Source: Gemmatimonadota bacterium
Lineage (GTDB): Bacteria; Gemmatimonadota; Gemmatimonadetes; Longimicrobiales; Gaopeijiaceae
Assembly: GCA_009840215.1 (NCBI GenBank)
Contig: VXOC01000334.1
Span: 1 to 38,813 of the forward strand
DNA length: 38,813 nt
Reading direction: 5' to 3'
The translations under genes were made by a program, and so were the position numbers. The notes under the pieces were generated by a model. That model ran no database searches and was not told the DNA's origin. It worked only from the letters and a program-made list of their open reading frames with translations. Positions 2,398-34,918 of the stretch are shown piece by piece (position 1 is the stretch's first letter; each line of letters begins with the position of its first letter).

Positions 2398-2445
2398 GAT
2401 GTATACTATACATGACAAAATGTAATGTCGACATTACATCGCAAG
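2398..2445 (-). repeat. AT-rich palindromic intergenic element, copy 1 (short form)
   Basis: An AT-rich patch in otherwise very GC-rich DNA, filling most of the 89-bp gap between the adaptor and permease genes. It contains two perfect palindromes. ATGTATACTATACAT at 2399-2413 has 7-nt arms and a 1-nt centre; ATGTAATGTCGACATTACAT at 2420-2439 is a 20-nt palindrome. Read on the minus strand it aligns base for base over about 40 nt with copies at about 13969-14013, 24382-24427 and 34769-34812. The GC-rich arm found in copies 2 and 4 is absent. It lies 18 nt upstream of the permease start, in the same orientation relative to the downstream gene as the other three copies. Confidence 0.75.
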
Positions 2446-2470
2446 GCCGAGCGGATTCGACCGGGGTCCA

Positions 2471-3691
2471 CTACCCGTCGCGTTCTTCATCCTCGTCCTC
2501 GATCGGCCGGACCGCGGTCCCCTCCTCGAGCGTCCGCACCACCTGGTACGGCCCGCTCACAATGCTGTCGCCGAGCGAGAGCCCCGAAATCACCTCGAAA
2601 TACTCCTGTCCCGCGATCCCGACCTCGACCGGCGTGAAGTGCGCGTGCCCCTCCGTGATCACGAACACGCCCTCGATGGGGTCGGCGTCCTCGTCCTCGT
2701 TCTCCTCGTCCTCACGGAGCGTGAGGGCGATGATCGGAATGCTGAGCTGGTTGCTGCGCGTCTCGGTGATGACCTCGGCTGTCGCGGACAGGTCCGGCCG
2801 CAATTCGGCCTTCGGGGTTTCGAGCGTGACCACAACCTCGAAATCGATCGTGGGGGTCTGCCCGGTCCCGGCCACCTGCGACGGCGGCCGGATCGCGCTG
2901 TTGCCGATCTCCGTCACCACCCCCGGGAACTCCAGATCCGGAAAGGCGTCGAGATCCACCGTGGCCCTGTCGCCCAGGGTGATTTCGGGCACGTCCGTTT
3001 CGTCCACCTCGAGCACCACCTCCATCACCGAGAGGTCCGAGACGGTGAGAACCAGGCTTCCCGGGTTGTTCATCGTACCCACGATGACCGTCTCTCCCTC
3101 TTCGACGTTCAGGCGCGTCACCCGGCCCGCCATCGGCGCCTCGATGACCGTCTTGGAGAGCTGGTCCCGCGCTTCGTCGAGTGCCGCCCGGGCCTGACTG
3201 ACCCCGAACTGGGCGGACTGGAGGAGCGATCGCTGGACCTCGAGGTCGGTGCGGGCGTTCTCCAGCTCCTGGCGGCTCACAAGCAGCGAGTCCCGTTCCC
3301 ACAGCGATTCCTTGCGGTCGGCTTCCCGTTCGGCCCGGTCGAAATTGGCCTGGGACTGGGTCACCGAGGCCTGCGCCTGCATCAGCGTGGCGCGGCTCCG
3401 GTTCACCGCGGCCTCGTAGCGGCTGGGATCAAGGCGCAGAAGCAGCTGTCCCTCCTCGACGTCCTCGCCCTCGTCGGTCAGCAGTTCCGTGACCCTCGCG
3501 GAGATGTCCGAACTGATGTCGACCTTCCGCCGGGCCCGCACGTTGCCGCTCGCCGTCACCGTGGCGGTGAGGTTGCGGCGCTCGACGACGTCGATTCGGA
3601 CTTCCTCGGCGTTAGAACGCGTCTGGCTGATGCTGAAGTAGGTTGCGGCACCCAGGATCAGAACTCCCAGCACCGCGAGCAGTATTTTCAT
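2471..3691 (-). CDS. RND/MacB-type efflux periplasmic adaptor (HlyD/MFP family)
   Basis: A 406-residue membrane fusion protein starting MKILLAVLGVLILGAATYFS, a signal anchor. After it come a lipoyl/barrel-sandwich half (about 45-85), an alpha-helical hairpin rich in Ala, Gln and Arg (about 90-185), the second lipoyl half (VIEAPMAGRVTRLNVEEGE) and a beta-barrel with a membrane-proximal domain. The C-terminal stretch is strongly acidic (DEENEDEDADP and DEDEERDG). An open frame extends further upstream, but those residues lie inside the tolC-like gene and are low-complexity, so the ATG at 3691 is preferred. It starts 7 nt after the stop of the channel gene. The role is to link the inner membrane permeases to the TolC-like channel. 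Confidence 0.9.
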   Translation of the reverse strand: MKILLAVLGVLILGAATYFSISQTRSNAEEVRIDVVERRNLTATVTASGNVRARRKVDISSDISARVTELLTDEGEDVEEGQLLLRLDPSRYEAAVNRSRATLMQAQASVTQSQANFDRAEREADRKESLWERDSLLVSRQELENARTDLEVQRSLLQSAQFGVSQARAALDEARDQLSKTVIEAPMAGRVTRLNVEEGETVIVGTMNNPGSLVLTVSDLSVMEVVLEVDETDVPEITLGDRATVDLDAFPDLEFPGVVTEIGNSAIRPPSQVAGTGQTPTIDFEVVVTLETPKAELRPDLSATAEVITETRSNQLSIPIIALTLREDEENEDEDADPIEGVFVITEGHAHFTPVEVGIAGQEYFEVISGLSLGDSIVSGPYQVVRTLEEGTAVRPIEDEDEERDG

Positions 3692-3698
3692 CGTTTGT

Positions 3699-5219
3699 CT
3701 ATGGATTCCTGAGCGGAGTGCCGACCACCGCCTCCAGGTCGGCGATCGCATCGTGATAGGTGAAGATCGAGAAGATTCGCTCCCGGTCCGCCCGCGCCTT
3801 GACGGTCTCCGCCTCGACCAGCTCGAGGAAGCCGGAGAGGTCCAGGCGGTAGCGCTCCCGTGCCAGGCGCAACTGCTCGTCCGCAAGGGCCTGGTTGCGT
3901 TCCTCGATCAGGGCGGTCTGGTACGCAGTACGCAGAATCGCCAGGCGTGACTCGATGTCCGCCCTCAACGCCAGCTCCTGTTCGCGAACCTGGTACCGGT
4001 TGTCGTGCAGGAGGGCACGCGCGCTCTCCAGCTCGCGCTGGCGGCCCAGACCCTGGAAGACGGGCAGGGAGACGGAGATCGAGGCCGAGGGCGGCTGGGT
4101 GGTGAAGTTGAATGGAAAGGCCTTGTTCGCGTCGCGGATCGACTGCAGCGCCGACTCGGGAGTCGCAAGCAGCGAACAGTTCTGGAGCGGTGGCGGGTCG
4201 GGCAGACGGGAAATGAGGTCGTTGAGGAACATGCACTGGGCCACGGCGGCGTTGCCCGCGGCGACGGCCGCCGCCTCCTGTCCGGCCGTGCTGCTCGCCT
4301 GGCGGGTGAAACCCGAGAATCCGGCGGACACCGAGAGGCTCGGCAAGTACGACGACCAGGCCATTCTGACCCCGTAGCGGGCCGACTCCTCGCCCGCCCG
4401 CAGCGCCTGCAGGTTCGGGTTCTGCAACACCGCCAATTCGTAGAGCTCTTCCACCGTCCAGACGGGCTCCGTAACGGCGAAGCCGGTCGCAAGCGACGGC
4501 TCGGCGTTCAGATTAACCCCGAGGTTCTGCAGGAGCCGCACCCGGGCGTTGCGAACGCCGGTTCGGGACTGGAGAAGCGCGATCTCGGCGCGCCCCACGC
4601 TGACCTCGGCCTGCTGCACGTCGATGGCGTTGCCTGAACCGACCTCCATGTGCCCCCTCGCCAGGTTCAGATTGAATTCGGCCCGGGCCAGCTCCTGTTC
4701 GGCCAGCGACTGCCCTTCGATCTGGCGCAGCACCTCCAGGTAGGCCCTGGTCACGTTCAGGCGAAGGGTGGACTCCGCGGTCCGGACCTGGGCCACGGTT
4801 GCGTCGCGGTTGCGCCTCGCCTGGCCCGGGGCCATCAGCGAGCGCCCGCTCAGCGAGAAGTTGACCCCGGCGTTGTATGAACTGAAGAGGAACGACGGCT
4901 GGTCCTGAAATCCCAGCTGGTCGGCCGTAATGCTGCCGAATCGCTGTTCACCCGCCCCCTGCCACTGGATGCTGGAGCTCAGCGAAGCCGAGGGCAACAG
5001 GGCGCCGTAGGCCGAGTTGAGGTTCCAGTTCGCCACGGTGACATCGTTGCGGGTCGCCTGAATGCGCGGGTTGTTCCGCAGCGCGATCTCGAGCGCCTCC
5101 CGTAGCGTCAGGGAAGATGGGACCAAGGCCTGGCCCGCGGTGGGCGGGGCCAACAGGGCCTGTACGGCCAGACCTGCGAGCAGTGCTGCCGTTCCCGGCG
5201 AGGTCAGCGCTTTTTTCAC
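3699..5219 (-). CDS. TolC-family outer membrane efflux protein
   Basis: A 506-residue protein with an N-terminal signal peptide (hydrophobic GTAALLAGLAVQALLAPP, probable cleavage after TAGQA). Two outer membrane efflux protein (OEP) repeats follow. The first begins SLTLREALEIALRNNPRIQA and the second contains TVEELYELAVLQNPNLQALR, the internal duplication typical of TolC. The start is GTG at 5219 with an AGGAGA ribosome-binding site 6 nt upstream (about 5225-5230). The C-terminal half has long helical stretches with heptad-like character (LALRADIESRLAILRTAYQT). It is the outer membrane exit duct for the exporter encoded by the next three genes. Confidence 0.92.
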   Translation of the reverse strand: MKKALTSPGTAALLAGLAVQALLAPPTAGQALVPSSLTLREALEIALRNNPRIQATRNDVTVANWNLNSAYGALLPSASLSSSIQWQGAGEQRFGSITADQLGFQDQPSFLFSSYNAGVNFSLSGRSLMAPGQARRNRDATVAQVRTAESTLRLNVTRAYLEVLRQIEGQSLAEQELARAEFNLNLARGHMEVGSGNAIDVQQAEVSVGRAEIALLQSRTGVRNARVRLLQNLGVNLNAEPSLATGFAVTEPVWTVEELYELAVLQNPNLQALRAGEESARYGVRMAWSSYLPSLSVSAGFSGFTRQASSTAGQEAAAVAAGNAAVAQCMFLNDLISRLPDPPPLQNCSLLATPESALQSIRDANKAFPFNFTTQPPSASISVSLPVFQGLGRQRELESARALLHDNRYQVREQELALRADIESRLAILRTAYQTALIEERNQALADEQLRLARERYRLDLSGFLELVEAETVKARADRERIFSIFTYHDAIADLEAVVGTPLRNP

Positions 5220-5290
5220 CAGAATCTCCTTGCTGTTTCAGGCTCCGGGCGGAGTCCGCGGCCCGTATCGGGTGGCCCCGGCCGCCTCGC

Positions 5291-5296
5291 ATTGTA
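5291..5296 (-). promoter_or_regulatory. possible -10 hexamer for the export operon
   Basis: In the 128-bp gap between the secreted unknown protein and the TolC-like gene, the minus strand reads TACAAT, five of six matches to the sigma-70 -10 consensus, 71 nt upstream of the GTG. No convincing -35 lies 16-18 nt further upstream, so this is weak evidence. It is the only promoter-like site seen in the gap. Confidence 0.25.
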
Positions 5297-5347
5297 GCGC
5301 CGCGGTCCAATCCACATATACGCGGACACGCTCGACAGGCTTCATGT

Positions 5348-6070
5348 TCAAGGGAGACGCAGGGCTTCGAAGCCCCGGGCCGCCCACGCCACCCGCACCA
5401 GGCGCCCGCTTCCGTCGAACCATGCCACCCTGCTTTCTCCTCCTGACGACAGCCGAATGCGCGTGGTTTCGACCCGCTCGCCGCCGACTTCGATCGTTTC
5501 CGCGCCTACATCCGACCGCGTCTGCGACTCCTCCATTTCGGCGAGCGGCACCACCGCGTGAATCCGCGCTTCCGCACCGTAGGTCTCGAGCAGCGCTTCA
5601 AGGATGAAATAGTGGTGGGCTACCCCCTCGTCGAAGATGACCGTTGGCGCACGCGCCGGGTATTCCCGGAGCTCCTCCCCCCAGGGCGCAACGGTTCGGG
5701 TACGCAGACGGTTGCCCGCCCGGATGACCCTTATTGTCAGCGTGTCCGAACCGGACACGGAGACTTCGTAGGTGTTCAGGACCATCGTGGTGCCCACCAG
5801 GTGCATGATGGTTTCCATGGTCCTGCCGTCCCGCAGCGTCAGGGTGCCGGTCGCCAGGGTGACCTGCGCGTCTCCGGTTCCCACCCGCTGAATCGTGAAC
5901 TCCTCTCTGCCCACTTCCTCGCCGCCGCTGTAAAGCACGAAAATGCCGCGGTCCACCAGCTGGCCGGAAACCGGGATCGGTGCCGCCATGGTCACGATGG
6001 CCAGAACCCGGCGCAACAGCGCACCGTGCCGCGGGGAACCCCGGCGTAACGAAGAGTAGGTGTGATCCAT
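5348..6070 (-). CDS. secreted protein of unknown function
   Basis: 240 residues. The N-terminus carries a run of arginines then a hydrophobic stretch (LLRRVLAIVTMAAPIPVSGQ), a plausible signal peptide ending near residue 36. The rest is beta-rich, with many alternating hydrophobic and polar strands (DTLTIRVIRAGNRLRTRTV), no cysteine and no recognised catalytic motif. This looks like a periplasmic or outer membrane-associated lipid-binding or barrel-like fold, but I do not recognise the family. The ATG at 6070 has AAGG 3-4 nt upstream. It is divergent from the large kinase at 6180 and is first in the leftward gene order, so it may be co-expressed with the exporter across a 128-bp gap. Confidence 0.7.
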   Translation of the reverse strand: MDHTYSSLRRGSPRHGALLRRVLAIVTMAAPIPVSGQLVDRGIFVLYSGGEEVGREEFTIQRVGTGDAQVTLATGTLTLRDGRTMETIMHLVGTTMVLNTYEVSVSGSDTLTIRVIRAGNRLRTRTVAPWGEELREYPARAPTVIFDEGVAHHYFILEALLETYGAEARIHAVVPLAEMEESQTRSDVGAETIEVGGERVETTRIRLSSGGESRVAWFDGSGRLVRVAWAARGFEALRLP

Positions 6071-6179
6071 TACCTTGAATCATAATGTCGGCATCGAGTC
6101 CGGGGGATTGCCGCCCCGGCTCGGAACCACGCTGGAGGACTATTTCGCTGCGAAACGACCGCCGCCCGCGCTCTTCGCC

Positions 6180-9100
6180 ATGAACGCCCCGGAAGACGTT
6201 CGAGAACCGTCGTCCGCGTCGGGGATTCTGATCTGGCTGGGATTCCTATCCCTGATCCTGTGGGCGAGGATCGGGAGCTCCTGGGCGCTCGCCGCCGCGG
6301 CCGTTTTCGTCTGCGCCTCCTTCCTGAAGGCCCGCGGCAGCCCGCGCCGCGCCATCTCCGCGCTGCTCCTGGGGGTCGGCATCGCAGTCGGCATTCGTAC
6401 GGACATGGTCGACCGCCGGCTCACCGAAGACTGGCAGTCGCACTGGGACGGGCGAAGCGAGGAAGTGGGCCTGGAACTCGAACGGGTGATGAACGAACTG
6501 GTCGCCCGGGGCGATTCCTCCGTGACCAGAGTCGTCGGCGCCGCCACGACCGCCGCGGAGCGCGCGAACCTGCAGGACTCTCTGCAGGCGGTGGTGGACG
6601 AGTCGGGCATGGCGGGAGCGGCGGTGTACGGACCCGATGGGCGACTGGTGGCGTGGGCGGGCGGGCACCGCGGCCGCGTCCCGGACGGGGCGCGTGAGGG
6701 CGCCACCCACTACTCGTACCACGGGACTCCGCTCTTCTCCTACCTCTACTTCACGGCGGAGATTCCCGACGGACTCGGGACCGCTATGGTGGCGAGCCTC
6801 ATGCGTTCCGACCTCCCCGAGGCTTTCGCGTCGGGGCTTGGCGACTTCGTTTCGCGGTTCAGGGACGAGACGGGGGAACGAATACGAATCGCGCGTTCGG
6901 ACACGGTGGCAGGCCCCGGGGTCTTCGACTTCGGCTGGGAGGGCGAGCCGCCCCTGCTCAGCTTCACCGTACAGGAGCCCGACCCGCCCGTGCGCCGGTC
7001 CGAGCGACGGGGCAGGGGAATCCACATCGTGATCGCGCTTGCCGCACTGGTGTGGCTCATCGAGTCCTTCGGCGGTCCCCGGCGTGACCTGCCCTACTCC
7101 GTGGCGGCTCTCGTCGCCGCCGGGGCGGTGCTCCCGCTGGAGGGGCTGCTGACGACCCGGCACCTGATCGATCCGGACTACTTCCGTCTCTTCGGACCCT
7201 TCTCCCTTCCGCTGGGCCGGGTCCTGATGCTGAGCGTCGCGGCCGTGCCTCTGGCGGTGCTGGTCGCCCCGCGCCGGGACCGGGTGGGGAACTGGCTCGC
7301 CCCCCCGGTCGTGGCGCTGACTTTCCCCCTGGTCCTCCATTGGATGGGACAGGGAGCGTCGCTGGAACTCCTGGGTACGACGGACACGCGCTGGATCGTC
7401 TTCCAGGCGTCGACCACGCTGATCCTGACGCTGATCGCCGGTGTGGCGCTGGCGTGTCGTGCTCCCGGCGGCGCCAGATGGGTGCCGAGCCTGGTCTTCC
7501 TGGGCATCGCCGCGGCCGCCATGCTGAGCATCGGCGTCGGCGTGGGCGTCCGGGTCGGTCCGGATGTGTCGCTGCCCCTGTCGGCCCTGTGGATGCTGCC
7601 GGCCGTCCTCATGGTACGAGGACTGGACGGCTCCCGGCGCAGGTCGTACATGCGCTGGTTCTGCGCCTTCTGGCTGGCGGGCACGGCCGCGCTTCCGTTT
7701 GCGTGGTCCATGCGCACCGAGGCGCGCCTGGCAATTGCGGAGAGCCAGATGGCGCAGCTGGGGGTGACCCCCGAACCGTATCCCGATTCGCTGCTGGCGA
7801 GATTCGCCCGCCAGGCGGACTACATGGACCTGACGGGGGCCGGCGACGTCGAGCTCATGTACCAGGCCTGGGTGACCAGTGGTCTTGCCGCGCAGGGGTC
7901 GCCGATCCTGCTGACCCTCTGGTCCGCGGAGGATGTCCCCATTCAGGAGCTCGGACTGGGGGTCAAGGGGGAGCGGTCGCCTGCGGTCGACGCGGCGCTG
8001 CCGGACCTTCGGGCCAGTGGAATGCCCGAGTACCGCCGCCCCGGAGAGACCGATGTTCACCACCTTCTCGCGGTTCCCCTTGGCGGCGGCCGCCTGCTTA
8101 CGGGTGCCATCCCGCCGCGCAGGACAATCGACGCCCCATCGGGGCTGGGCCCCCTCTTCGCCTCCGTCGAGGAAGGAGCCGACCAGGAGTTCCTGACGCT
8201 GGTGAGCACCGCCGACGCAGCCGCTCCGGCGGAGGGGGCATCGGTGGCATGGACCCGCAACGACGAGGGTTGGAGGGGTGAGGGAGTCGCTCGCTTTCCG
8301 GACGGTCCATACGCGGTCTTCTACACCCTGAGCATCCCGAACCTGCAGGTCATGCTGGCGCGGGCCACGCTGGTTCTCGCCCTGAACCTGGCGGTGTTCG
8401 CGATCCTGTGGATTCTGAGCGTGGGGATCGTGGGGATGCCCTTCCCCGGACCCGTCGACTGGCGGGGACTGTACCACTCCTTCCGCGCCCGGGTCACGTG
8501 GACGCTCTTCGGCTTCTTCATCCTGTCCAGCGTGCTCTTCGGGGCCCTGGCCTATCGAACGCTCGCGGGGGCATCGGAGCGCACCGCCACGGCGCTTGCG
8601 GAGCGGGTGGTCTCGCAGATCGGCGAGGCGTATCTGGAGGAGGGCGGCTCGATGGAGTCGCTGGCCCGCCGTGTGGGAGCCGATCTGCTCGAATACCGTG
8701 ACGGAGAACTCGTTGGCGGCTCGGTGGACGAACTCATCGAGCTGGGCCTCTACGAGGGCTGGGTCGACCCGCGCATCTACGACGACCTCGAGACGCGGCA
8801 GAGCCTCCGGGCGTCCAAGGTGGAAAACCTCGGCGGATGGCAGTACGTCATGGCCCACCGCCGCCTTCCGGACGGGGATATCGTCGCATCTCCCGTCCCT
8901 TTGCGGGCGGGCGCGGCCGCGTTGCGCAGACGCGATGTCGCGGACCTGCTCGGGTTCGCCATCGTCCTCGGTCCGGTGCTGTCGCTCGGTCTGGCCCTTC
9001 TTGTCGGGCAGGCGCTGACCCGGCCGATTCAGACGCTGCAGGTGGCATCGGAGCGCGTGGGTAGCGGAAACCTCGCCGTGCATCTGCCGGATGACCGCGT

Positions 9101-10271: not shown

Positions 10272-10275
10272 ACCC

Positions 10276-10899: not shown

Positions 10900-10931
10900 C
10901 GCGGCCAAGGGGCGGATCCACGTCGGAAGAC

Positions 10932-12383: not shown

Positions 12384-12399
12384 CGCCCCGTCCCCGCCC

Positions 12400-13830: not shown

Positions 13831-13868
13831 GGCGGCCTCAGTGTTGTGTTCCGGGGATTCGCGAGCTA

Positions 13869-14062
13869 CCGAGAGTGCCGAGGCGCCGGTCTGGCAAGGC
13901 GCGACGAGAGGGGAATAGCAGGGCTATTCGCCCGAGGAGCAACGCAGAGCGGAGCCCTGAAGAACAAGAATGTATACCATACATTACACATTGTAATATC
14001 TTCATTACATTATTAGTGGCATGGGCGAAGCGGTCCAGCCCGGATGCATCGGTGCTCGAATA
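13869..14062 (-). repeat. AT-rich palindromic intergenic element, copy 2 (long form)
   Basis: Lies in the 257-bp gap between pntAB and pntB. It has three parts. A GC-rich arm (13869-13959) matches the reverse complement of 34821-34911 at 85 of 91 positions and contains the stem-loop GAATAGC-AGG-GCTATTC at 13913-13929. An AT core (about 13969-14013) contains ATTACA-CAT-TGTAAT. A second arm ends in GATGCATCCGG on the minus strand and is shared with copies 3 and 4. Read on the minus strand, the core lies 139 nt upstream of the pntB start. No open reading frame is evident inside it, and no T-run follows the stem-loop, so it is not a canonical intrinsic terminator. Confidence 0.85.
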
Positions 14063-14087
14063 GCCGAGATATCTCCGGGACACGACA

Positions 14088-14366
14088 CTAGCGTTTCCTG
14101 AACATCTGCAGCATGCGGTCGGTCACCATGAAGCCGCCCACGACGTTGATGGTGGCCATGACGATTCCCGCGATGCCGAGGACCTTCACCCAGGTCGAGT
14201 CCGCGGCCCCCGTGACGACCAGCGCCCCGATGATCGCGATCCCCGAGATCGCATTGGCGCCGGACATGAGGGGGGTGTGAAGGGTGGGGGGGACCTTCGA
14301 GATCACCTCCCTTCCGGCGAGCGTGGCCAGCACGAAGACGTACAGGCCGATCAGCAGTTCACCCAT
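14088..14366 (-). CDS. pntAB: NAD(P) transhydrogenase subunit alpha part 2
   Basis: 92 residues with three or four hydrophobic segments (LLIGLYVFVLATLAGREVIS, ANAISGIAIIGALVVTG, VLGIAGIVMATINVVGG) and a basic C-terminus (DRMLQMFRKR). This is the membrane portion that is fused to PntA in Escherichia coli but separate in the three-subunit form. The signature VPPTLHTPLMSGANAISG is typical of the family. The ATG at 14366 lies 7 nt after the pntAA stop. It contributes helices to the proton channel domain II together with PntB. Confidence 0.95.
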   Translation of the reverse strand: MGELLIGLYVFVLATLAGREVISKVPPTLHTPLMSGANAISGIAIIGALVVTGAADSTWVKVLGIAGIVMATINVVGGFMVTDRMLQMFRKR

Positions 14367-14373
14367 GGGCTCT

Positions 14374-15510
14374 CTACTCCGTGGCGGCAGCCAGGTTATC
14401 CCTGACGCGCTCGTTGGTGATTGCGCCGCCCCGGGTCACGCAGGTGGCGGCCGTGATTTCGTCCTCGTGGTCGATCCCGCCCTCGTCGTCGAAGAGGTGG
14501 CCGACGAGATCTGCGAGATTGCGTGCGTACATCTGGCTGGCGTGGAAAGGGAGCTCTGCGGGGAGATTGGTGGGTCCCATGACGGTGACCCCGCCGTGTT
14601 CGACGCTCTCGCCCGCGGCGGTGACTTCGCAGTTGCCGCCCGTCTCCGAGGCCAGGTCGACGATCACGCTTCCCGGCCGCATGCTCGCCACCATCTCCTC
14701 GGTGATGAGCACCGGTGCGGCGCGTCCGGGTATCTGGGCCGTGGTGACGACCAGGTCGTGGTCCCGGATGTGCGTGGCGATCAGCTCCAGCTCCGCCTCG
14801 TGCTGCTCCTCCGACAACTCCTTCGCGTAGCCCCCCTCGTCCTCGCTGGCCTCGTCGAGCGTCGCCTCGAGGAACTTCGCCCCCAGGCTCTCGACCTGCT
14901 CCTTCACCGCGGGCCGGATGTCGAAGGCCGACACGACCGCGCCCAGCCGCTTCGCCGTCGCGATCGCCTGCAGTCCCGCCACGCCGGCACCCAGGATCAT
15001 CGCCTTGGCGGGCCGGACCGTGCCCGCCGCCGTGGTGAGCATGGGCAGAAAACGGGTCATCGATCCGGCGCCGTTGAGCACCGCCTTGTACCCCGCGACG
15101 GTGGCCTGCGAGGAAAGCACGTCCATCTTCTGCGCGCGCGTGATCCTCGGGATGAGCTCCACGGCGAATGCACTCACCTCGCGGGCCGCCAGTGCCTCGA
15201 TGATTCCCGGCGGGCCCAGCGGGTTCAGGTGGCAGACCAGGACGCACCCACGGGGCAGCGCGGCCACTTCGTCCCGGGTCGGCGGCTGTACCTTCAGCAC
15301 CACCCCGGCCCCCTCGAGGACCGCGTCACGCCCCGCGACGACAGTGGCTCCAGCCTCCTGGTAGTCCCGGTCCAGAAAGGAGGCGCCGTCCCCCGCGCCG
15401 GCCTCGACGCGCAGATCCCAGCCTCGTTTGCGGTAGTGCCGCACTGCTTCGGGAACGAGTGCGACGCGACGTTCGCCCGGCCGGCTCTCGGCCATGATCG
15501 CGATGGTCAT
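14374..15510 (-). CDS. pntAA: NAD(P) transhydrogenase subunit alpha part 1
   Basis: 378 residues from the ATG at 15510. An ATG three codons upstream (15519) is in frame, but GGAG directly abuts it and is 9 nt from the 15510 ATG, so the latter is preferred. The N-terminal alanine dehydrogenase/PNT domain begins with a GERRVALVPEAV motif. The NAD(H)-binding Rossmann domain carries ILGAGVAGLQAIATAKRLGA then AFDIRPAVKEQVESLGAKFL, and DLVVTTAQIPGRAAPVLI follows. This is the soluble NADH-binding domain I of the transhydrogenase. Its first 82 codons and upstream region are exactly repeated directly upstream (see the tandem duplication). Confidence 0.95.
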   Translation of the reverse strand: MTIAIMAESRPGERRVALVPEAVRHYRKRGWDLRVEAGAGDGASFLDRDYQEAGATVVAGRDAVLEGAGVVLKVQPPTRDEVAALPRGCVLVCHLNPLGPPGIIEALAAREVSAFAVELIPRITRAQKMDVLSSQATVAGYKAVLNGAGSMTRFLPMLTTAAGTVRPAKAMILGAGVAGLQAIATAKRLGAVVSAFDIRPAVKEQVESLGAKFLEATLDEASEDEGGYAKELSEEQHEAELELIATHIRDHDLVVTTAQIPGRAAPVLITEEMVASMRPGSVIVDLASETGGNCEVTAAGESVEHGGVTVMGPTNLPAELPFHASQMYARNLADLVGHLFDDEGGIDHEDEITAATCVTRGGAITNERVRDNLAAATE

Positions 15511-15585
15511 CGATGTCATCTCCGGTCAAAATCGCGTCCAACTTGCATCGCCGTGGCCGGTTCCGCCAGACCCGGGAGGTCCGCG
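15265..15585 (-). repeat. 321-bp tandem direct repeat, unit 1 (pntAA 5' end and leader)
   Basis: This unit covers the first 255 nt of the pntAA reading frame counted from 15519, plus 66 nt upstream. It is followed immediately, head to tail, by an identical unit at 15586-15906. I compared the two line by line and found no mismatch. The left boundary differs at 15264 (c) versus 15585 (g). On the right, the match extends one extra base before a/g at 15587/15908. 321 is a multiple of three. Confidence 0.95.
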
Positions 15586-15840
15586 CACTTCGTCCCGGGT
15601 CGGCGGCTGTACCTTCAGCACCACCCCGGCCCCCTCGAGGACCGCGTCACGCCCCGCGACGACAGTGGCTCCAGCCTCCTGGTAGTCCCGGTCCAGAAAG
15701 GAGGCGCCGTCCCCCGCGCCGGCCTCGACGCGCAGATCCCAGCCTCGTTTGCGGTAGTGCCGCACTGCTTCGGGAACGAGTGCGACGCGACGTTCGCCCG
15801 GCCGGCTCTCGGCCATGATCGCGATGGTCATCGATGTCAT
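15526..15840 (-). pseudogene. duplicated, truncated 5' fragment of pntAA
   Basis: Reading from 15840, the first 85 residues are identical to PntAA (counted from its 15519 start). The frame then crosses the repeat junction, continues for 19 unrelated residues and stops at 15526-15528. That is 6 nt before the upstream ATG of the intact gene. The fragment lacks the Rossmann domain and should not be catalytic. Because it retains the native ribosome-binding region and ends next to the real start, it could be translated as a leader coupled to pntAA. That is inference. Confidence 0.8.
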
Positions 15841-15906
15841 CTCCGGTCAAAATCGCGTCCAACTTGCATCGCCGTGGCCGGTTCCGCCAGACCCGGGAGG
15901 TCCGCG
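15586..15906 (-). repeat. 321-bp tandem direct repeat, unit 2
   Basis: Exact copy of 15265-15585. It carries a second copy of the pntAA ribosome-binding site, start codons and first 85 codons of the 15519 frame, placed between the intact gene and comM. Any regulatory signal in the 66 nt upstream of pntAA is thereby present twice. Confidence 0.95.
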
Positions 15907-19451: not shown

Positions 19452-19459
19452 TCGGCAAG

Positions 19460-20113: not shown

Positions 20114-20141
20114 CGGTCGGGACGACGGAAGAACCGAGCTC

Positions 20142-21500: not shown

Positions 21501-21559
21501 GGACATGCGGAGAATGAAGGGCGGCTTGTCAGCGTGGAACGCGGGCCGCAGGATATAGG

Positions 21560-22436: not shown

Positions 22437-22518
22437 TTCTTGCTGTGGATTTTTTTGCGGCCGACCTCGCGATTCCCCTTTCGCGGGGCGGCTTCGTTTC
22501 GCTGGGCATGGAAATTCC

Positions 22519-22950: not shown

Positions 22951-22967
22951 CTTCTGCGAGGAGATGC

Positions 22968-23363: not shown

Positions 23364-23376
23364 GCGACCCACTTCC

Positions 23377-24306: not shown

Positions 24307-24314
24307 CACCCGGT

Positions 24315-24430
24315 GCACGAAATCCCCGCTGAATTCGGGCGGCGATTGCATCCGCGCCGGACGCCTCGAAGTCCCCATTCGTTGTGTAAATCAAACATTA
24401 CATTATGTAATGTATGCCTTACATTCTCCA
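24315..24430 (+). repeat. AT-rich palindromic intergenic element, copy 3
   Basis: Lies in the 167-bp gap between rpsB and tsf. The left arm, containing GATTGCATCCGCGCC, is related to the arms of copies 2 and 4. The AT core (about 24382-24427) contains the palindrome ACATTACAT-T-ATGTAATGT (24395-24413). Read on the plus strand it aligns with the other three cores, ending in a TTACATT where the others have TATACAT. The 91-bp GC-rich arm is absent. The core ends 47 nt before the tsf start. Confidence 0.75.
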
Positions 24431-24473
24431 TTCACTCCAAGGTCCGCCGGCGCAAGGCGGGGGATAGTTCAAG

Positions 24474-25067: not shown

Positions 25068-25077
25068 CGAGCGGCGC

Positions 25078-25839: not shown

Positions 25840-25905
25840 ACGCATCCGACACGATCAGCGCGCCGGCTCCAGGGTGATCGCGGCGTCGACCGGCAGGAGA
25901 GCAAC

Positions 25906-26457: not shown

Positions 26458-26557
26458 GCGGGCGGCCCGCGGCCGGGACCCCCGGCATTCCCGTGCAACC
26501 GCGCGCGTGCTCGTGGGAATCCGTCCGCCGACCGCGCCAGATCGCCGTCCGAACCTG

Positions 26558-27304: not shown

Positions 27305-27311
27305 CGACCGC

Positions 27312-28190: not shown

Positions 28191-29341
28191 CCGGAGTCGC
28201 GGTGCTGGGGGCAACGGGTTCGGTGGGACGCTCGACGCTGGCCGTGGTCCGCAGGCATCCCGCGCGATTCAGGGTCGTCGCCATGTCCGTGCACCGATCC
28301 GTCGGAGAGCTGGAACGATTGGCCGCCGAGTTCGGGACGCGGGAGCTCGCGGTGGCGGAATCCTCGGCGCTGAATGGTCGTCCCGACCTGCAGGCAGCGG
28401 GCTGGCGGAGCGGACCCGAAGGCGTGGTGGAACTCACCGCCCTGCCCGGAGTGGATGTCGTCGTCAATGCGGTCGTCGGCGCGGCCGGATTGCCACCGAC
28501 CCTGGCTGCGCTGCAAGCCGGCAAGCGCTGCGCGCTGGCCAACAAGGAGTCACTCGTCGCGGCCGGAGAACTCGTACTGGAGGCGGCGCATCGGGGAGGA
28601 GGGGAACTCGTACCGGTCGACAGCGAGCACTCCGCGATCCTGCAGTGCATCGGGTCCGCCCGGCACGAGGAGATCCACCGCCTGATCCTCACCGCAAGCG
28701 GCGGGCCCTTTCGCGAGACCGGTGCCGAGGCGCTGAAGACGGCGACCGCGTCGATGGCGCTGCGGCACCCCACCTGGGAGATGGGCGCCAAGATCACGAT
28801 CGATTCGGCCACCCTGGCCAACAAGGCGCTGGAGGTGATCGAGGCGCACTTCCTGTACGGTCTGCCCTACGAACGAATCGAGGTCGTGGTGCACCCGACC
28901 TCGATCGTGCACTCCTTCGTCGAGTTCGTCGACGGCTCGGTCCTGTCGCAGATGGGTTCGCCCACCATGGAGCTGCCCATTCTTCACGCGCTCACCTGGC
29001 CGCGCAGGCCGCCGGACCCCGTGCTGCGGGGCTTCGATCCCGTCGAAATCTCGCCTCTCGTCTTCGAGCCGGTGGACGAGGAGCGCTTCCCGCTCTTTCG
29101 CCTTGGCGTGAATGCCGGTCGCGCGGGCGCCGCCGCCCCGGCCGTGTTCAACGCCGCGAACGAGGTGGCCGTTGAAGCCTTCCTGAGCGGCAGGGTTACC
29201 TTCCTTGGGATGTCGGAAGTCGTGGCGGCCGTCCTCGAGGCGCTGGAGGGACGCTCCGCGTGTGATCTACAGGAGGTGTTGCAGGTGGACCGGGCCGCGA
29301 GGCGCCGCGCGGCAGCGGAAGTCGAAAGGATCGGTGCATGA
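28187..29341 (+). CDS. dxr: 1-deoxy-D-xylulose-5-phosphate reductoisomerase
   Basis: 384 residues from a GTG at 28187 (GTGA overlap with the cdsA stop). The NADPH-binding N-terminus is VAVLGATGSVGRSTLAVVRR. Metal- and substrate-binding segments are ANKESLVAAG, VPVDSEHSAILQCI and LTASGGPFR. Further family segments are GAKITIDSATLANKALEVIE and VVVHPTSIVHSFVEFVDGSV. It catalyses the second step of the MEP isoprenoid pathway, supplying precursors to UppS encoded upstream. Confidence 0.97.
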   Translation: MTGVAVLGATGSVGRSTLAVVRRHPARFRVVAMSVHRSVGELERLAAEFGTRELAVAESSALNGRPDLQAAGWRSGPEGVVELTALPGVDVVVNAVVGAAGLPPTLAALQAGKRCALANKESLVAAGELVLEAAHRGGGELVPVDSEHSAILQCIGSARHEEIHRLILTASGGPFRETGAEALKTATASMALRHPTWEMGAKITIDSATLANKALEVIEAHFLYGLPYERIEVVVHPTSIVHSFVEFVDGSVLSQMGSPTMELPILHALTWPRRPPDPVLRGFDPVEISPLVFEPVDEERFPLFRLGVNAGRAGAAAPAVFNAANEVAVEAFLSGRVTFLGMSEVVAAVLEALEGRSACDLQEVLQVDRAARRRAAAEVERIGA

Positions 29342-30684
29342 CAATCCTGGCCACGATCGTCCTTTTGGGCGTTCTGATCTTCGTACACGAACTGGGGCAC
29401 TTCTGGGCCGCCAAGTCCGTGGGGATCGGAGTGGAGCGCTTTTCCATCGGCCTGGGGCCGCGGGTCTGGGGTATCGAGCGGGGGGGCACCGAGTACGTCT
29501 TTTCCGCCATTCCGCTGGGCGGGTACGTGAAGATGCAGGGGATGGAGGACGAGGTCATGGAGCATCTCGAAGGAGGCGCGACCGGGGAACCGAGAGAGCC
29601 CGGTCCCGGCGACTTCGATGCCCAGCCGCTCCTGGCCCGTGCTTTCGTCATCTCCGCGGGGGTCATCATGAACATGATCTTCGCCTTCTTCCTGTACACG
29701 CTGGTCGCGGCCGCCTGGGGCGTACGGGAGCTGGCGACCACCCGGGTCATGGATGTGGACGAGGGTGCCCTGCCCGCCGGAACCGAAGCGCTGGCGGGAA
29801 TCGCCCCGGGAGCCGAGATCGTGCGGGTGGGCGGGGTCGAGCCCGAATCCTGGGGGGATGTCCAGCGTGCGTTGCTCGAGAGCCCCGCGGGACCGCTGAG
29901 GATTGCCACCGAATCGCCCGCGGACGTCTTTGAAGTCATCGTGCCGGAGGACGGGGGGGAGCGCAGGAACCTGGCGGGTGCGCTGTGGTACTGGGTCGAT
30001 CCGATCGTGGGCGACCTCGAACCGGGCGGCCCGGCGGCGGGCGCGGCGATCGAGCGCGGGGACCGCATCACAAGTGTGGACGGAGCTCCCGTCCGGAACT
30101 GGGCGGACATCATCCGCGAGGTGGGCTCCCGGCCCGGCGAGACGGTGGAGGTCGGGCTCCTCAGAAGCGAGAACGCGCTGACCCGCATCGTCGAAATCGA
30201 CGACGTCGAGGGCGAGGGGGATGGGGAGCGGAGAGGGAGACTGGGCATCGTGCAGTCCCAACCGGAGACCCGCACCATTTCCGTTGGCATGATCGAGGCC
30301 GTGTCGATCGGATGGGATCAAACGTACGGCATAACAGGCCGGATTCTCGGGTTCCTGCGCGACCTGTTCACCTTCAACGTGTCGCCGCGGTCGGTCGGCT
30401 CGATCGGTACCATCGCGGTGATCTCCGGCCAGGCCGCCGCCGAGGGAATGGCCGCGTTCCTGGAGTTCATGGCCCTGTTCAGCATCAATCTGGCCATCCT
30501 GAACATGCTTCCCATACCCATCCTGGACGGAGGCCACATGGTCTTCCTCGGAATCGAACTCGTGCGCGGCCAGAAGCTGTCGGTGAAGCAGCGGCTGCGG
30601 TGGACTCAGGTCGGGTTCGCCTTCGTCATCCTCATCATGGTCTGGGCCCTGAGCAACGACGTGCTGAGGTTCCTCGGACTGTAG
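29338..30684 (+). CDS. rseP: RseP-type site-2 intramembrane metalloprotease
   Basis: 448 residues. The zinc motif HELGH lies in TM1 (LGVLIFVHELGHFWAAKSVG), followed by FSIGLGPRVWGIERGGTEYV and the membrane-embedded IPLGGYVKM. Two PDZ-like domains occupy about residues 150-300 (AGIAPGAEIVRVGGVEPESW, AAIERGDRITSVDGAPVRNW). The C-terminal membrane motif NMLPIPILDGGHMVFLGIEL carries the catalytic Asp. In the family it cleaves anti-sigma factors and leftover signal peptides. No anti-sigma gene is nearby. The start overlaps the dxr stop (ATGA). Confidence 0.95.
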   Translation: MTILATIVLLGVLIFVHELGHFWAAKSVGIGVERFSIGLGPRVWGIERGGTEYVFSAIPLGGYVKMQGMEDEVMEHLEGGATGEPREPGPGDFDAQPLLARAFVISAGVIMNMIFAFFLYTLVAAAWGVRELATTRVMDVDEGALPAGTEALAGIAPGAEIVRVGGVEPESWGDVQRALLESPAGPLRIATESPADVFEVIVPEDGGERRNLAGALWYWVDPIVGDLEPGGPAAGAAIERGDRITSVDGAPVRNWADIIREVGSRPGETVEVGLLRSENALTRIVEIDDVEGEGDGERRGRLGIVQSQPETRTISVGMIEAVSIGWDQTYGITGRILGFLRDLFTFNVSPRSVGSIGTIAVISGQAAAEGMAAFLEFMALFSINLAILNMLPIPILDGGHMVFLGIELVRGQKLSVKQRLRWTQVGFAFVILIMVWALSNDVLRFLGL

Positions 30685-30720
30685 GGGACACGGGCACGGA
30701 ACCTCGCGGTGATCGGCCGG

Positions 30721-30735
30721 CGGCAGCCCTTGCCG
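30721..30735. terminator. possible hairpin between convergent rseP and MBL genes
   Basis: CGGCA-GCCCT-TGCCG can form a 5-bp stem with a 5-nt loop, flanked by further GC-rich pairing potential, in the 57-bp gap between two converging genes. There is no U-tract on either strand, so this is only a candidate. Confidence 0.3.
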
Positions 30736-30741
30736 GCGTGG

Positions 30742-31563
30742 TCAGAGGAACGACAGCTGGCGCGGGCCCACCTGCTCACGCAGCACTCCCAGATCCAGCA
30801 GCGGCGTGGGCCGGTCCGGACGGGCCACCTCGACCGTTCCCGCGAACCCCTGCTTCGCGAGCGCCCGCTCCATTTCGCTCCTCGCCAGTGCGGGCGTGTT
30901 CGATTCCTCCGACAGGTGAGCCAGCACCACGACCGTCAGCCTCGGGTTCAGCAGCTCCAGGACGAGCCGGGTGGCCGCCTGGTTCGAGAGGTGTCCGTGA
31001 CTTGACGCGATCCTGGCCTTGACCGACGCGGGGTAGCTGGTGGACCACAACATCGACTCGTCGTGGTTCGACTCGACGACCAGGGCGTCGCAACCGCGCA
31101 GCGCGTGCATGACCTGGAGGGTGGGGCGTCCCAGGTCGGTGGCGATTCCCAAGCGCAGGCCCGTGGCGGGTTCCCGCACCGCCACTGCCACCGGATCGAC
31201 CGCGTCGTGCACGGTGATGAACGGTTCGACCTCGAGTTCCTCCACCTCGACCGGATACCCGGCCCGGTACGTGCGGACCTCTTCGGAGCCGCGCAACAGT
31301 TTGCGGCAGGCGCCCAGCGTACCCTCGGTCATCATGAGCGGCGTACCGTGCGCGCGGGCGAAGACACCGGCCCCGCGCGTGTGGTCTCCGTGCTCATGCG
31401 TCACCAGGATGGCGGTGACCTCGGCGGGTTCGACACCGACCGTGGCCAACCTCTTCGTGAGCTCCCGCGCGCTGAAGCCCGCGTCGACCAGGAGGCGGGT
31501 GGTCCCCGCGGCGATCAGGGTGGCGTTGCCGCGGCTGCCGCTGCCGAGGACGGAGAAGCGCAC
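30742..31563 (-). CDS. MBL-fold metallohydrolase (YycJ/WalJ-like)
   Basis: 273 residues from a GTG at 31563. It starts MRFSVLGSGSRGNATLIAAG and has the metal motif THEHGDHTRGAGVFARAHGT, then LGIATDLGRPTLQVMHALRG, VVESNHDESML and ASSHGHLSNQAA, with a late His in VVLAHLSEESNTP. This order matches the YycJ/WalJ group of metallo-beta-lactamase fold hydrolases, thought to act as exonucleases linked to DNA repair or wall control in Firmicutes. The function here is not established. It lies 50 bp downstream of the GlmU-like gene on the same strand. Confidence 0.87.
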   Translation of the reverse strand: MRFSVLGSGSRGNATLIAAGTTRLLVDAGFSARELTKRLATVGVEPAEVTAILVTHEHGDHTRGAGVFARAHGTPLMMTEGTLGACRKLLRGSEEVRTYRAGYPVEVEELEVEPFITVHDAVDPVAVAVREPATGLRLGIATDLGRPTLQVMHALRGCDALVVESNHDESMLWSTSYPASVKARIASSHGHLSNQAATRLVLELLNPRLTVVVLAHLSEESNTPALARSEMERALAKQGFAGTVEVARPDRPTPLLDLGVLREQVGPRQLSFL

Positions 31564-31613
31564 CGTTCAGCAGTCCGTGGAGAATGCCGCGAGGGTTTTT
31601 CCCACGGGGGCGC

Positions 31614-32825
31614 TCAGTGGCCGCCCGCTCCGGATCGAAGCGGCGCCGTGTCCGCGAAGGCCCGCCGGTAGAGGCGGCGCGTCCGGCGGTTAAGCTCGAC
31701 ACCCCGTCGCGCCATCACCCTGGCGGCCGTTTCGAGGAAGCGGTCGATGTCGTGATCCACGAGTCCCCCGGCACCGCCCCACGAAAACGGCGGCACCTCC
31801 TTCGGCATCATTCCCCCTCCGAACAGACTCGCCCCGGGGCCGACCGTGGCGCCGGTGTCGATCAGCGTGCCGATCCCGGTGCGGACGTGGTCGCCGAGGA
31901 GGCACCCGGCCTTGACGAGTCCCGTATCGATCGAGCGCCCGTCCGTCTCGACGCGCACCGTGCCGTAGGTGTTCTTCAGGTCGGAGTTGGTGGTCATCGC
32001 TCCCAGATTCACCCACCGGCCGACCACCGAATGGCCCAGGAAGCCGTCGTGGGCCTTGTTGGCGAAACCCAGGAACACGGTCGCTTCGACCTCGCCCCGC
32101 ACCTTGCAGGCCGGTCCGATCCCGACGTTCTCGAAGAAGCCCCCCAGCACCGTCGAGCCACGGCCGACATACGCCGGGCCGGCGATTCGGCACGGAGCCT
32201 GAACGCGCGCGTTCGCGTCCACGACGACGGGTCCGCCCCTCGTGTCGAGAACCGTTCCGGGTTCGATGACCGCCCCTTCACCCACGCTGACGCTTCCCCC
32301 GCCGATCCGGTGAACGTGTGCCGGCGGTCCATCGTCCGAACAGCGGGCGCCATCGGCATGGAGCCGGTCCCCGTTCCTGTCCATGAGGTCCCACACCGAC
32401 CCGAGCAGCGTCCCGCGGAGCTCGACTCTCGGCCAGTCCGGCCACTCGCCGTGCCATACGGATGCCGGGAGCGCCGTCCCGTCGGGGACCCAGATGCCGA
32501 CGGGCTCCCCGGTGTCCGCCGCGAGCAGAGTGGGGCCGTCAAGGGTGCCGCCACCGGTGTCACAGGCGAAGCGGCTGCACAGCAGGACCCGGTTCCCTTC
32601 GCTCCCGATCGCTTCCGGGGTCACGCCACGCGGGGCCCCGGGCTCGTCGAAGTCCAGAAGCGCGTCTCCGCCCAGGTGGCCCTCGCACGGCAGCCCCCAT
32701 GCGCGTTCCGCCCGGGCCCGCAGCGTCTCGGTTCCGAAGAGGAGTTCGCCGGCCGGACGGGTCAGCGTGAAGGGACGCCAGTTCCGGGCTGCGGGATCGT
32801 CGAAGAGGAAGAGGCGCGCGGGCAT
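31614..32825 (-). CDS. GlmU-like sugar-phosphate nucleotidyltransferase with left-handed beta-helix
   Basis: 403 residues from the ATG at 32825. The N-terminal part (about 1-200; RLFLFDDPAARNWRPFTLTR, PAGELLFGTETLRARAERAW) resembles the divergent nucleotidyltransferase domain of the alternative GlmU type seen in Bacteroidota. The C-terminal part is a hexapeptide left-handed beta-helix: SVSVGEGAVIEPGTVLDTRG, AYVGRGSTVLGGFFENVGIG and LLGDHVRTGIGTLIDTGATV. It probably makes UDP-N-acetylglucosamine or a related nucleotide sugar, but the canonical GxGTRM loop is not obvious, so the activity is uncertain. The start overlaps the previous stop by 1 nt (TGATG), suggesting coupling with the guanylyltransferase. 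Confidence 0.8.
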   Translation of the reverse strand: MPARLFLFDDPAARNWRPFTLTRPAGELLFGTETLRARAERAWGLPCEGHLGGDALLDFDEPGAPRGVTPEAIGSEGNRVLLCSRFACDTGGGTLDGPTLLAADTGEPVGIWVPDGTALPASVWHGEWPDWPRVELRGTLLGSVWDLMDRNGDRLHADGARCSDDGPPAHVHRIGGGSVSVGEGAVIEPGTVLDTRGGPVVVDANARVQAPCRIAGPAYVGRGSTVLGGFFENVGIGPACKVRGEVEATVFLGFANKAHDGFLGHSVVGRWVNLGAMTTNSDLKNTYGTVRVETDGRSIDTGLVKAGCLLGDHVRTGIGTLIDTGATVGPGASLFGGGMMPKEVPPFSWGGAGGLVDHDIDRFLETAARVMARRGVELNRRTRRLYRRAFADTAPLRSGAGGH

Positions 32826-33910
32826 CAACCGGGGGGTGAGTCCGGCCCGCGGCCGGAAGCCGGTTGGAGCAGGCGCGGGGGTAGACCCTGCAGGTATTCC
32901 TTCAGCCGGGGGGACTCGGAGCGGGGCATCACCAGCGTGACGTGCTCCGTCTGCACGACGAGAAGATCGCGCACGCCGAGCAGCGCCAGGCGCCCGCTGC
33001 CGGCGAGCGCGATGTTGTCCGCCGATCCCGACAGGTGAACCTCGCCCTCGATCACATTGCCCCGTTCGTCCACGGGCCGGTTGCGGGCCAGCGACTCCCA
33101 GCTTCCGACATCGTCCCAGCGAAAGCTCGCATCGATGCAGGCGACCCGTTCGCTTCGCTCCAGCACCGCCTCGTCCACGCTGATTCGCGCGGTCGCCTCG
33201 AAGAAGGCGCCGGTGTCTCCCGTTTCCAGGTGCGGCAGCGCACATGTGATTTCGGGAGCGCAGCGTTCCAGTTCCTGCAGAAAGACACCGGCCGCCCAGA
33301 CGAAGATCCCGGTGTTCCAGCGGCAGCCCTCCTCGACGTAACGGGCCGCGCGGGTGGGTCCGGGCTTCTCCACGAAGGCACCGACCCGGTACGCGCGGTG
33401 CCCCGCGGGAGCTGGCAGCGCCTCGCCGGGACGGATGTAGCCGTAGCCGGTCTCGGGACGGTCGGGAGGAGCCGCGACGGCCAGCAGAAGCCGGTCCCGG
33501 TGAGCGATGTCGACGGCGGCCGCCAGGACGTCCCGGAAGGCCTCGACGGGTTCGATCATGTGATCGGAGTGGAGGGAGACCATGATCGCGCCGGGGTCGG
33601 CCCGCTCGATCTCCCACGCGGCACGCGCGAGAACCGGGCCCGTGCCCCTGGCGCGCGTCTCCACCATGAAGGACTCGCGGCCGAGTCCGGTCGCGCCCCG
33701 GATGGGCTCAACGAGGTCTTCGCCGGCAAGCACGCGGAGCCGTTCGCCCGGAACGAAGCCCCGCACCCGTTCGATCGTATCGAGGATCAGGGGTTGCGAG
33801 CTGGCCAGCGGCAACAGCTGCTTCGGGCGTTCGGGCGTGCTCAGCGGCCAGAACCTGTGACCGGCGCCGCCCGCCAGGATCGTGACCCAGACCGAGGGTT
33901 CCGGTTTCAC
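32825..33910 (-). CDS. manC: mannose-1-phosphate guanylyltransferase
   Basis: 361 residues from a GTG at 33910; a TTG two codons upstream (33916) is also in frame. The nucleotide-binding loop is ILAGGAGHRFWPLSTPERPK. Other ManC/GMP signatures are the HSDHMIEP metal motif, ETGYGYIRPGEALP, VGAFVEKPGPTRAARYVEEG, WNTGIFVWAAGVFLQEL and SFRWDDVGSWESLARNRPVD. There is no C-terminal phosphomannose isomerase domain. It makes GDP-mannose for polysaccharide or glycoconjugate synthesis. It is first in the leftward unit manC, glmU-like, MBL hydrolase. Confidence 0.9.
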   Translation of the reverse strand: MKPEPSVWVTILAGGAGHRFWPLSTPERPKQLLPLASSQPLILDTIERVRGFVPGERLRVLAGEDLVEPIRGATGLGRESFMVETRARGTGPVLARAAWEIERADPGAIMVSLHSDHMIEPVEAFRDVLAAAVDIAHRDRLLLAVAAPPDRPETGYGYIRPGEALPAPAGHRAYRVGAFVEKPGPTRAARYVEEGCRWNTGIFVWAAGVFLQELERCAPEITCALPHLETGDTGAFFEATARISVDEAVLERSERVACIDASFRWDDVGSWESLARNRPVDERGNVIEGEVHLSGSADNIALAGSGRLALLGVRDLLVVQTEHVTLVMPRSESPRLKEYLQGLPPRLLQPASGRGPDSPPG

Positions 33911-34139
33911 GTGCAATTCTGCACCGGGAGAAGGTGATCGAGGCGAAGATCAAGGCTCAAGCTAGCCGGAATCAGCAGGAAAGTCACGGAGCCCGGGGCC
34001 GCCTGCCGACCCGCCCGCGGAGGAACGGCGCCCTGTGGGCCGAGTGTCCCGCCGCCCCTGCGCGACGCGGGTTTCTCCATTGCGATGACGACGGTTTTCG
34101 AGAGTTGACCCGAGAGATCCCCGGCGGGTAGATTGAGCA
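33911..34139. other. divergent intergenic region between manC and the lipoprotein gene
   Basis: About 220 bp without a credible gene. The part near manC has no clear ribosome-binding site or hexamer pair. The part near 34105-34134 holds a candidate promoter for the lipoprotein. I see no tRNA-like cloverleaf and no copy of the AT-rich repeat. Confidence 0.5.
34105..34134 (+). promoter_or_regulatory. candidate promoter of the lipoprotein gene, possibly leaderless
   Basis: TTGACC (34105-34110) is followed after 18 nt by TAGATT (34129-34134). These match five and four of six consensus positions. The last base of the -10 is 6 nt before the ATG at 34140, so transcription would begin at or next to the start codon. 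No Shine-Dalgarno sequence is visible, which fits a leaderless mRNA. Confidence 0.4.
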
Positions 34140-34694
34140 ATGAAGATTCGCAATCTGGCGCTGGTGACCCTTGTCAGTGCGGCCCCGCTGACCGCGTGCG
34201 GCGACGATCCATTCCGGTTCGATTGGGTCGAGAACCCCGACACGGTAGAGCTGTACGTCCTTTCGCGTCCCGAGCCCAACCTGCTGTCGGCCTTCGACTT
34301 TTTCAGCCGCATCCCGAAGCGGCTGGAGGCTCCCACCACGGGCGACCTGTGGGACCTCACCGTGGACTACCGGGACGGGCAGTTCGTGTGGCTGCCGCCC
34401 GGGGCTCTGGGAATCGATTCGGACGCCGGCCTCGCGACCCTCGAGGGCCACAGCTGGCTGAGCGCCGAGGAGGCGCCGGCCGATACCGCCGCCTACGTCA
34501 CCGACGCGGCAATCCCGATCAGTTTCGACCCGATCTACGTCATCCGCACCCGGCTGCACCAGGGCACCTTCTCCCTCTGCAACTACTACGGCAAGATCGA
34601 GGTTCTGGAGACTGACTCGATCGTCGGTACGGTCCGGTTCCAGTTCGATGTGAACCGAATCTGCAACAGCCGCGATCTCGTCCCGCCGGACTAG
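34140..34694 (+). CDS. putative lipoprotein of unknown function
   Basis: 184 residues. The signal sequence MKIRNLALVTLVSAAPLTAC ends in a lipobox LTAC followed by Gly-Asp-Asp, so Cys20 is the probable lipidated residue. Asp at +3 would be compatible with either membrane. The mature part is acidic and rich in aromatic residues (FRFDWVENPDTVELYVLSRP, FVWLPPGALGIDSDAGLATL). It holds two more Cys (FSLCNYYGK and RICNSRD) that could form a disulfide. The family is not recognised. It stands alone between the divergent manC and the repeat copy upstream of serS. Confidence 0.75.
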   Translation: MKIRNLALVTLVSAAPLTACGDDPFRFDWVENPDTVELYVLSRPEPNLLSAFDFFSRIPKRLEAPTTGDLWDLTVDYRDGQFVWLPPGALGIDSDAGLATLEGHSWLSAEEAPADTAAYVTDAAIPISFDPIYVIRTRLHQGTFSLCNYYGKIEVLETDSIVGTVRFQFDVNRICNSRDLVPPD

Positions 34695-34704
34695 CAGCCC
34701 GTGG

Positions 34705-34918
34705 AAAAATCCCCCCGGCATTCGACCGGCGATGCATCCGGCCTGGGCCGCTTCGTTCCAGGTTCCACGATGTAATGATTAGTTTCCATTATGGAATGCG
34801 TAGTATACATTGGTTCCTCGCAGGGCTTCGCTCTGCGTTGCTCCTCGGGCGAATAGCTCTGCTATTCACCTCTCGTCGCGCCTTGCCAGCCCGGCGCCTC
34901 GCCGCTCTCGGTGCTCGG
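34705..34918 (+). repeat. AT-rich palindromic intergenic element, copy 4 (long form)
   Basis: Fills most of the 263-bp gap between the lipoprotein gene and serS. The left arm contains GATGCATCCGG. The AT core (34769-34812) includes TTCCAT-T-ATGGAA. A GC-rich arm (34821-34911) is the reverse complement of 13869-13959 at 85 of 91 positions. The arm carries the stem-loop GAATAGC-TCT-GCTATTC (34851-34867) and a second hairpin CGCAGGGC-TTC-GCTCTGCG at about 34820-34838. It faces serS in the same orientation as the other copies face their downstream genes; the core ends 146 nt before the serS start. Confidence 0.85.

Follow-up and report, generated by a model that had tools for sequence, protein, structure and literature searches.

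Four AT-rich stretches lie between genes in a window of 38,813 nucleotides (the whole stretch of DNA that was analysed), and they raise the question whether a mobile element or a regulatory module has been placed next to unrelated genes. The window is contig C7 of the 370 contigs of its own genome, here G000, which totals 4.09 Mb. Five distinct zones of the window reach at least 60% AT over 40 nt, and four of these are the copies A to D, so that these cores indeed stand out as originally described. With a core matrix derived from 94 cores, the scores are 68.6 for A (2397, minus strand), 63.4 for B (13968, minus), 59.6 for C (24383, plus) and 54.7 for D (34769, plus), against a best score of 1.9 across six locally shuffled windows; the four sites thus share one core. 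The flanking gene pairs encode HlyD and MacB-FtsX (A), PntA-4TM and PntB (B), ribosomal protein S2 and EF-Ts (C), and an unassigned protein and seryl-tRNA synthetase (D). The genes named in the original prediction are recovered, except that the supposed lipoprotein gene upstream of serS has no Pfam match.

Copy D is a complete element of 244 bp (34695..34938, plus strand) with inverted ends at 34695-34712 and 34921-34938, and it stands directly 3' of a TAG stop (34692-34694). Its core at 34769..34812 (39-mer 34771-34809) fits the core pattern with two mismatches, and it contains an apical hairpin block, TGCGTTGCTCCTC ... CGTCGCGCCTTGC, at 34834..34886. Copy B, on the minus strand, reads as a full-length element at about 13842..14087 with arms common to D and variant outer ends of the TGTCGTGTCCCGG type, directly after the TAG stop (14088-14090) of pntA-4TM; its core at 13968..14011 (39-mer 13971-14009) has one mismatch. 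On the plus strand, copy C is a truncated element with a left arm at 24307..24382 (profile match, model positions 4-128) after the TGA stop of rpsB, followed by a core at 24383..24426 (39-mer 24385-24423). Copy A, on the minus strand, consists of a core at 2397..2440 (39-mer 2400-2438) without any mismatch and of a probable eroded left arm at 2441..2470, for which the profile match begins at model position 55 and the arm was read by eye; this stretch adjoins the TAG stop (2471-2473) of the adaptor gene. The predicted copies are therefore real and a left arm is shared, 36 nt at 86% between B and D, besides the left arm of C and the eroded one of A, but the extents first given for B and D needed correction. 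B and D are the same element in their bodies, with 92 nt of the right arm alike at 93%, and not in their outer ends. A common direction of the cores is clear for A, B and D, while the core of C is nearly palindromic (57.6 on the minus strand) and takes its direction from the arm. Elsewhere in the window, at 15265-15885, there is a perfect tandem duplication (300 nt, 100% identity, spacing 321) that spans the start of a gene at 14374-15510 and may be a recent event or an assembly artefact.

A Blast search of the own genome with copy D gives 50 matches, about 25 of them near full length. Being short, dispersed and multi-copy, with inverted terminal repeats and no transposase gene, the element is a non-autonomous MITE of 245 bp, bounded by CAGYCCGTGGAYAAA and inserted at a CTAG-type target. 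In the alignment its arms are inverted and imperfect, about 54 bp long, with sharp outer ends. Among 176 end pairs, counted over 203 loci that overlap in part, 130 are 240-249 bp apart, 33 are 160-179 bp apart and five are 42-68 bp apart. The 160-179-bp class is without core in the copies read, yet multi-copy. The flanks are CTAG-like at both sides, and 4-nt flank identity in 44 copies exceeds that of all 2000 shuffles; in the larger set of 134, p<0.01 is reached by one of the 36 pairs of flank positions tested, a weak signal in the register predicted for a 4-nt duplication. Of 98 genomes, 48 contain element DNA, including all 23 of the genus. Four Burkholderia plasmid records have a 37-nt match; viral contigs and phages gave no match. 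Head-to-tail arrays with touching ends are formed by short core-less elements (L093, L094, L116, L146 and L029) and, in L116, also by long ones. The right end (for example 34921-34938 in the window) contains TTATCCACG, which is one base away from the DnaA box TTATCCACA. An end pair of 1,961 bp in L174 was dropped, as the reading frame inside it looks by eye like that of an ordinary peptidase.

MITE-type ends also surround a DDE transposase gene, about 1.5 kb apart, at eight loci in six other genomes of the genus, namely G001 (three loci), G005, G007, G014, G015 and G018; for this, 30 DDE_Tnp_1 loci and nine further stretches were inspected. These insertion sequences are flanked by CTAG on either side, save for one CTAA, and two of the loci carry a stop within the matched stretch. 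The best NCBIfam match of both scanned transposases is IS1182 (9e-58 and 1.7e-51), at 196 and 176 bits below the curated cut-off of 270 bits, hence the label IS1182-like. Several of the partner insertion sequences have TTTATCCACGG at one end. A DDE_Tnp_1 profile match exists in 15 of the 23 genomes of the genus; the own genome has no such match, nor was an insertion sequence with MITE-type ends found there, and the DDE_Tnp_1 loci read in G021 (some of 41 matches) include none with such ends. Since the ends match, the partner transposase probably moves the MITE in trans.

The tetramer CTAG is scarce in such GC-rich DNA, with three occurrences in the window against 115 expected from base composition. 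It often includes a TAG stop, which together with its rarity would explain why insertions fall between genes and often exactly at a stop. Gene context was taken from a simple codon-usage caller, which may err in starts and in small genes. By this caller, 125 gene 3' ends face an element; for 56 of them the distance is no more than 4 nt, and the stop is TAG in 52 of the 56. Among the genes called in L091-L203, TAG makes up 220 of 688 stops. In the window, TAG precedes A, B and D and TGA precedes C. Orientation could be assessed for 83 of 158 elements (long or short class, both co-directional neighbours called, clear direction), with loci of similar flanks merged into clusters. Elements between co-directional genes are in sense with them in 48 of 71 clusters (p=0.004): 37 of 59 in the long class (p=0.07) and 11 of 12 in the short class (p=0.006). 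The ratio of sense to antisense is 31:8 for stop-adjacent insertions and 17:15 for the others (Fisher p=0.02).

What the MITE carries has an architecture of its own. The 94 cores follow TGTMAWG-N4-SWTTACA, three bases and TGTMATG-N4-STATACA, that is, a pair of 18-bp dyads, the centres of which are separated by 21 bp, in a full core of 44 bp. A G and a C 14 bases apart are kept in 94 and 92 of the 94 cores in one box, and in 94 and 93 in the other. The TyrR box is given as TGTAAA-N6-TTTACA with an invariant G-N14-C (PMC4374768), and the TyrR-like GcsR is described as binding tandem 18-bp sites (PMC4894688). The core boxes conform to this rule, with an 18-bp dyad, arms of the TGTAAA/TTTACA type and G-N14-C. 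A CRP/NtcA-type box was also weighed, and the G-N14-C rule makes TyrR the better fit. Pairing between the dyad arms exceeds that of shuffles at few positions only, and a putative protein site is therefore favoured over a hairpin. A TyrR-type helix-turn-helix (HTH_50, PF18024) has matches in all 23 genomes at E<=0.01, above the cut-off in seven of them and below it in G000; no core is present in the 12 loci retrieved around genes of this type.

The core also occurs apart from the element. In the own genome, the core pattern with up to three mismatches has 83 and 84 matches on the two strands, on both of which near-palindromic sites count, and its reversed control has none. Over 98 genomes it is found in 22 of the 23 of the genus and, as a single match, in one of the 75 outside; numbers range from 0 in G009 and 10+6 in G001 to 147+148 in G011. 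From 110 loci picked among the matches listed for G000 and G021, 107 core sites could be read: 36 are in full MITEs, 42 have a recognisable arm, a generous class in loci located via the core, and 29 are alone. None of the 107 lies inside a predicted gene. The lone cores occur both behind and ahead of genes, seven in sense, 14 antisense, three between divergent genes and five without a downstream gene, and several stop 12-35 nt upstream of a start codon. A survey for single boxes (up to one mismatch) in 276 kb of G021, sampled at regular intervals, avoids the fixed spacing of the pattern. All nine boxes found are intergenic, though 15% of the sequence is non-coding, and the reversed control has none; the best second box is exactly 21 bp away in six of the nine and 20 bp away in a seventh. 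One of the nine boxes lies within a full MITE. Extrapolated from the 276 kb, there would be roughly 145 boxes per genome. Because of this intergenic placement, the architecture and the restriction to the genus, we consider the core a putative operator, at which a dimeric regulator would bind in tandem to boxes of the TyrR/GcsR type. Of the regulatory module and the orientation bias originally proposed, the former is supported for the core alone, which has a fixed two-box layout, and the latter for the elements, the direction of lone cores being random.

Related genomes differ at three of these loci. At the permease locus (copy A), G021 has an empty site right behind the TAG stop, and in the insertion common to G000, G007 and G018 the arm is eroded and the core well kept. 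Between rpsB and tsf, left arm and core are present in G000 and G018, arm remnants in G021 and neither in G007. At serS, the full long element is found in G000 only among the 23 genomes, with arm remnants in several others. The mobile reading put forward at the outset is thus well supported, by inverted ends, a CTAG-type target, insertion sequences with the same ends and an empty site in a relative. Eight further elements were read, in G009 and in seven of the 25 genomes outside the genus that have matches, and all eight lack the core. G009 is filed in the same genus, and with a core-less element (L083) and no core matches it may represent the stage that preceded acquisition of the core. The sites read in G000 and G021 include 16 locus pairs with similar flanks, 11 of which were aligned (L396/L415 and L406/L408 poorly). 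Core identity is 388/485 against 497/880 for the flanks, and the core is ahead in ten of the 11 pairs, a difference that overstates conservation because both partners were chosen for having a core.

The body of the element has a wider distribution. Dispersed elements of other phyla share the block TGCGTTGCTCCTC-N(about 25)-CGTCGCGCCTTGC, with differing loops. Besides the window, it is present in L106, L127, L159, L172, L201 and L204-L228, with ten matches in a Deltaproteobacteria MAG, two in an Acidobacteria MAG and 13 in a Proteobacteria MAG, against none in the reversed controls, and also in one Eisenbacteria and one unassigned MAG. In a scan of named genomes, the matches listed are mostly from MAGs of Gemmatimonadota, together with one chromosome of Longimicrobiales that is complete, OX639991.1; judging by isolate names, many of the genomes with the block presumably come from marine sponges. 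The outer ends of these elements of other phyla differ, several having CTAG. Copy B, with its TGTCGTGTCCCGG ends on a body like that of D, has counterparts with similar ends (CTAGTG..CC) in other genera and in an unassigned MAG (L087, L089 and L201). It looks as if element bodies had exchanged their ends between types of insertion sequence. Complete long elements bearing the core of the genus also occur in L136 (Chloroflexota bin IRC4_bin_30) and L163 (Vicinamibacteraceae Plut_88867), on contigs that are filed under other phyla; these are probably mis-binned, and transfer would be the other explanation.

It could be imagined that the MITE is purely selfish, with the core as an accessory transposition site and the lone cores as relics of dead elements. 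The recognisable arm beside 42 of the 107 core sites, by a profile criterion, is what this would predict, and copy A and the G000 site L353 do look like elements in decay when set against an empty site or an orthologue in better condition. However, the core-less 160-179-bp elements are multi-copy, which makes the core dispensable for spread; a full MITE holds a single one of the nine evenly sampled boxes; and, as the arms are longer than the core, neutral decay should spare no armless near-perfect cores, although these sites were selected by core. We therefore regard this explanation as unlikely. The core might instead be a portable outward promoter, of which sense copies are retained for driving the next gene. 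This would agree with the preference of the elements for sense, which rises to 24 of 30 in full elements with a core, and with the lone cores that finish shortly ahead of a start codon. Such a directional promoter was rejected, and we rate it as very unlikely: lone cores have no direction, the sense bias is strongest in the short class that has no core and is concentrated in stop-adjacent insertions, and a simple consensus scan of copy D shows no sigma-70-like promoter.

Many palindromic intergenic sites per genome, indifferent to gene direction, are also reminiscent of the chromosome-organising site families of Noc, SlmA and MatP. Yet the 57 sites on the complete G021 chromosome are no more than mildly uneven (Rayleigh R 0.24, p about 0.035), with origin and terminus left unfixed by sampled GC skew, and site numbers differ more than tenfold among species; we set this possibility aside as highly improbable. 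Least credible of all is an RNA leader or 3'-end structure. Copy D and one short copy fold better than 200 of 200 shuffles (z -4.9 and -5.7), but such folding follows from long inverted arms by construction, and the RNA reading of the whole element was dropped on this account. For the core itself, the scarce pairing of the dyad arms and the directionless lone sites contradict the leader that had been proposed, and no Rfam family reaches the gathering threshold in the window.

The reading that we prefer, and consider probable, is that the MITE carries a genus-specific, putative tandem operator, acquired within the genus, and scatters copies of it. An IS1182-like transposase would act in trans on the MITE, and the CTAG-type target would lead insertions to the gaps between genes, often right at a TAG stop. 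A core-less MITE would have picked up the tandem site within the genus and then spread it; the arms of old copies would erode, while the cores would tend to persist. Given that relatives without the core exist and that lone boxes are in excess in the even sample, capture of a host operator by the MITE seems favoured over seeding of most lone cores by it. A more far-reaching version can be offered tentatively and is rather more doubtful than not: a genus-wide global regulator would use about 100 or more tandem operators per genome, one of which was captured by the ancestral core-less MITE, and stop-codon targeting would now rewire housekeeping operons species by species. If the preferred reading is true, bacteria would offer a clear example of a two-box operator being spread by a transposon, in which core-less relative, loaded element, empty site and lone sites can all be seen across related species. 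The CTAG preference would explain how it settles at stop codons without breaking genes, and the core would offer a direct handle for a DNA pull-down of the putative regulator, in a group represented here almost entirely by assemblies.

From titles and the beginnings of abstracts in the open-licence literature, no account of this element or core was recognised. TyrR and GcsR sites are like the core in their 18-bp dyad, their TGTAAA..TTTACA-type arms, the invariant G-N14-C and their adjacent boxes. The core differs from them in that its arms are often TGTCATG or TATACA and its centres are 21 bp apart, and there are far more core sites per genome than the eight operons of the E. coli TyrR regulon (PMC4374768). 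As for the element, bacterial MITEs derived from insertion sequences are likewise short, gene-free and dispersed between genes, with ends common to a transposase-bearing insertion sequence and an empty site in a relative. Unlike the usual ones, this MITE contains a complex motif of two boxes that is frequent outside the element as well, and it often starts at a TAG stop. Correia elements are known as intergenic mobile repeats. Like them and the enterobacterial RU/ERIC repeats (for RU, PMC2759123), the MITE belongs to the small, non-autonomous intergenic repeats that are able to carry protein-binding or promoter signals. It is unlike both in target, ends and core sequence, and the site that it carries also stands alone and, by the pattern used, belongs to one genus only.
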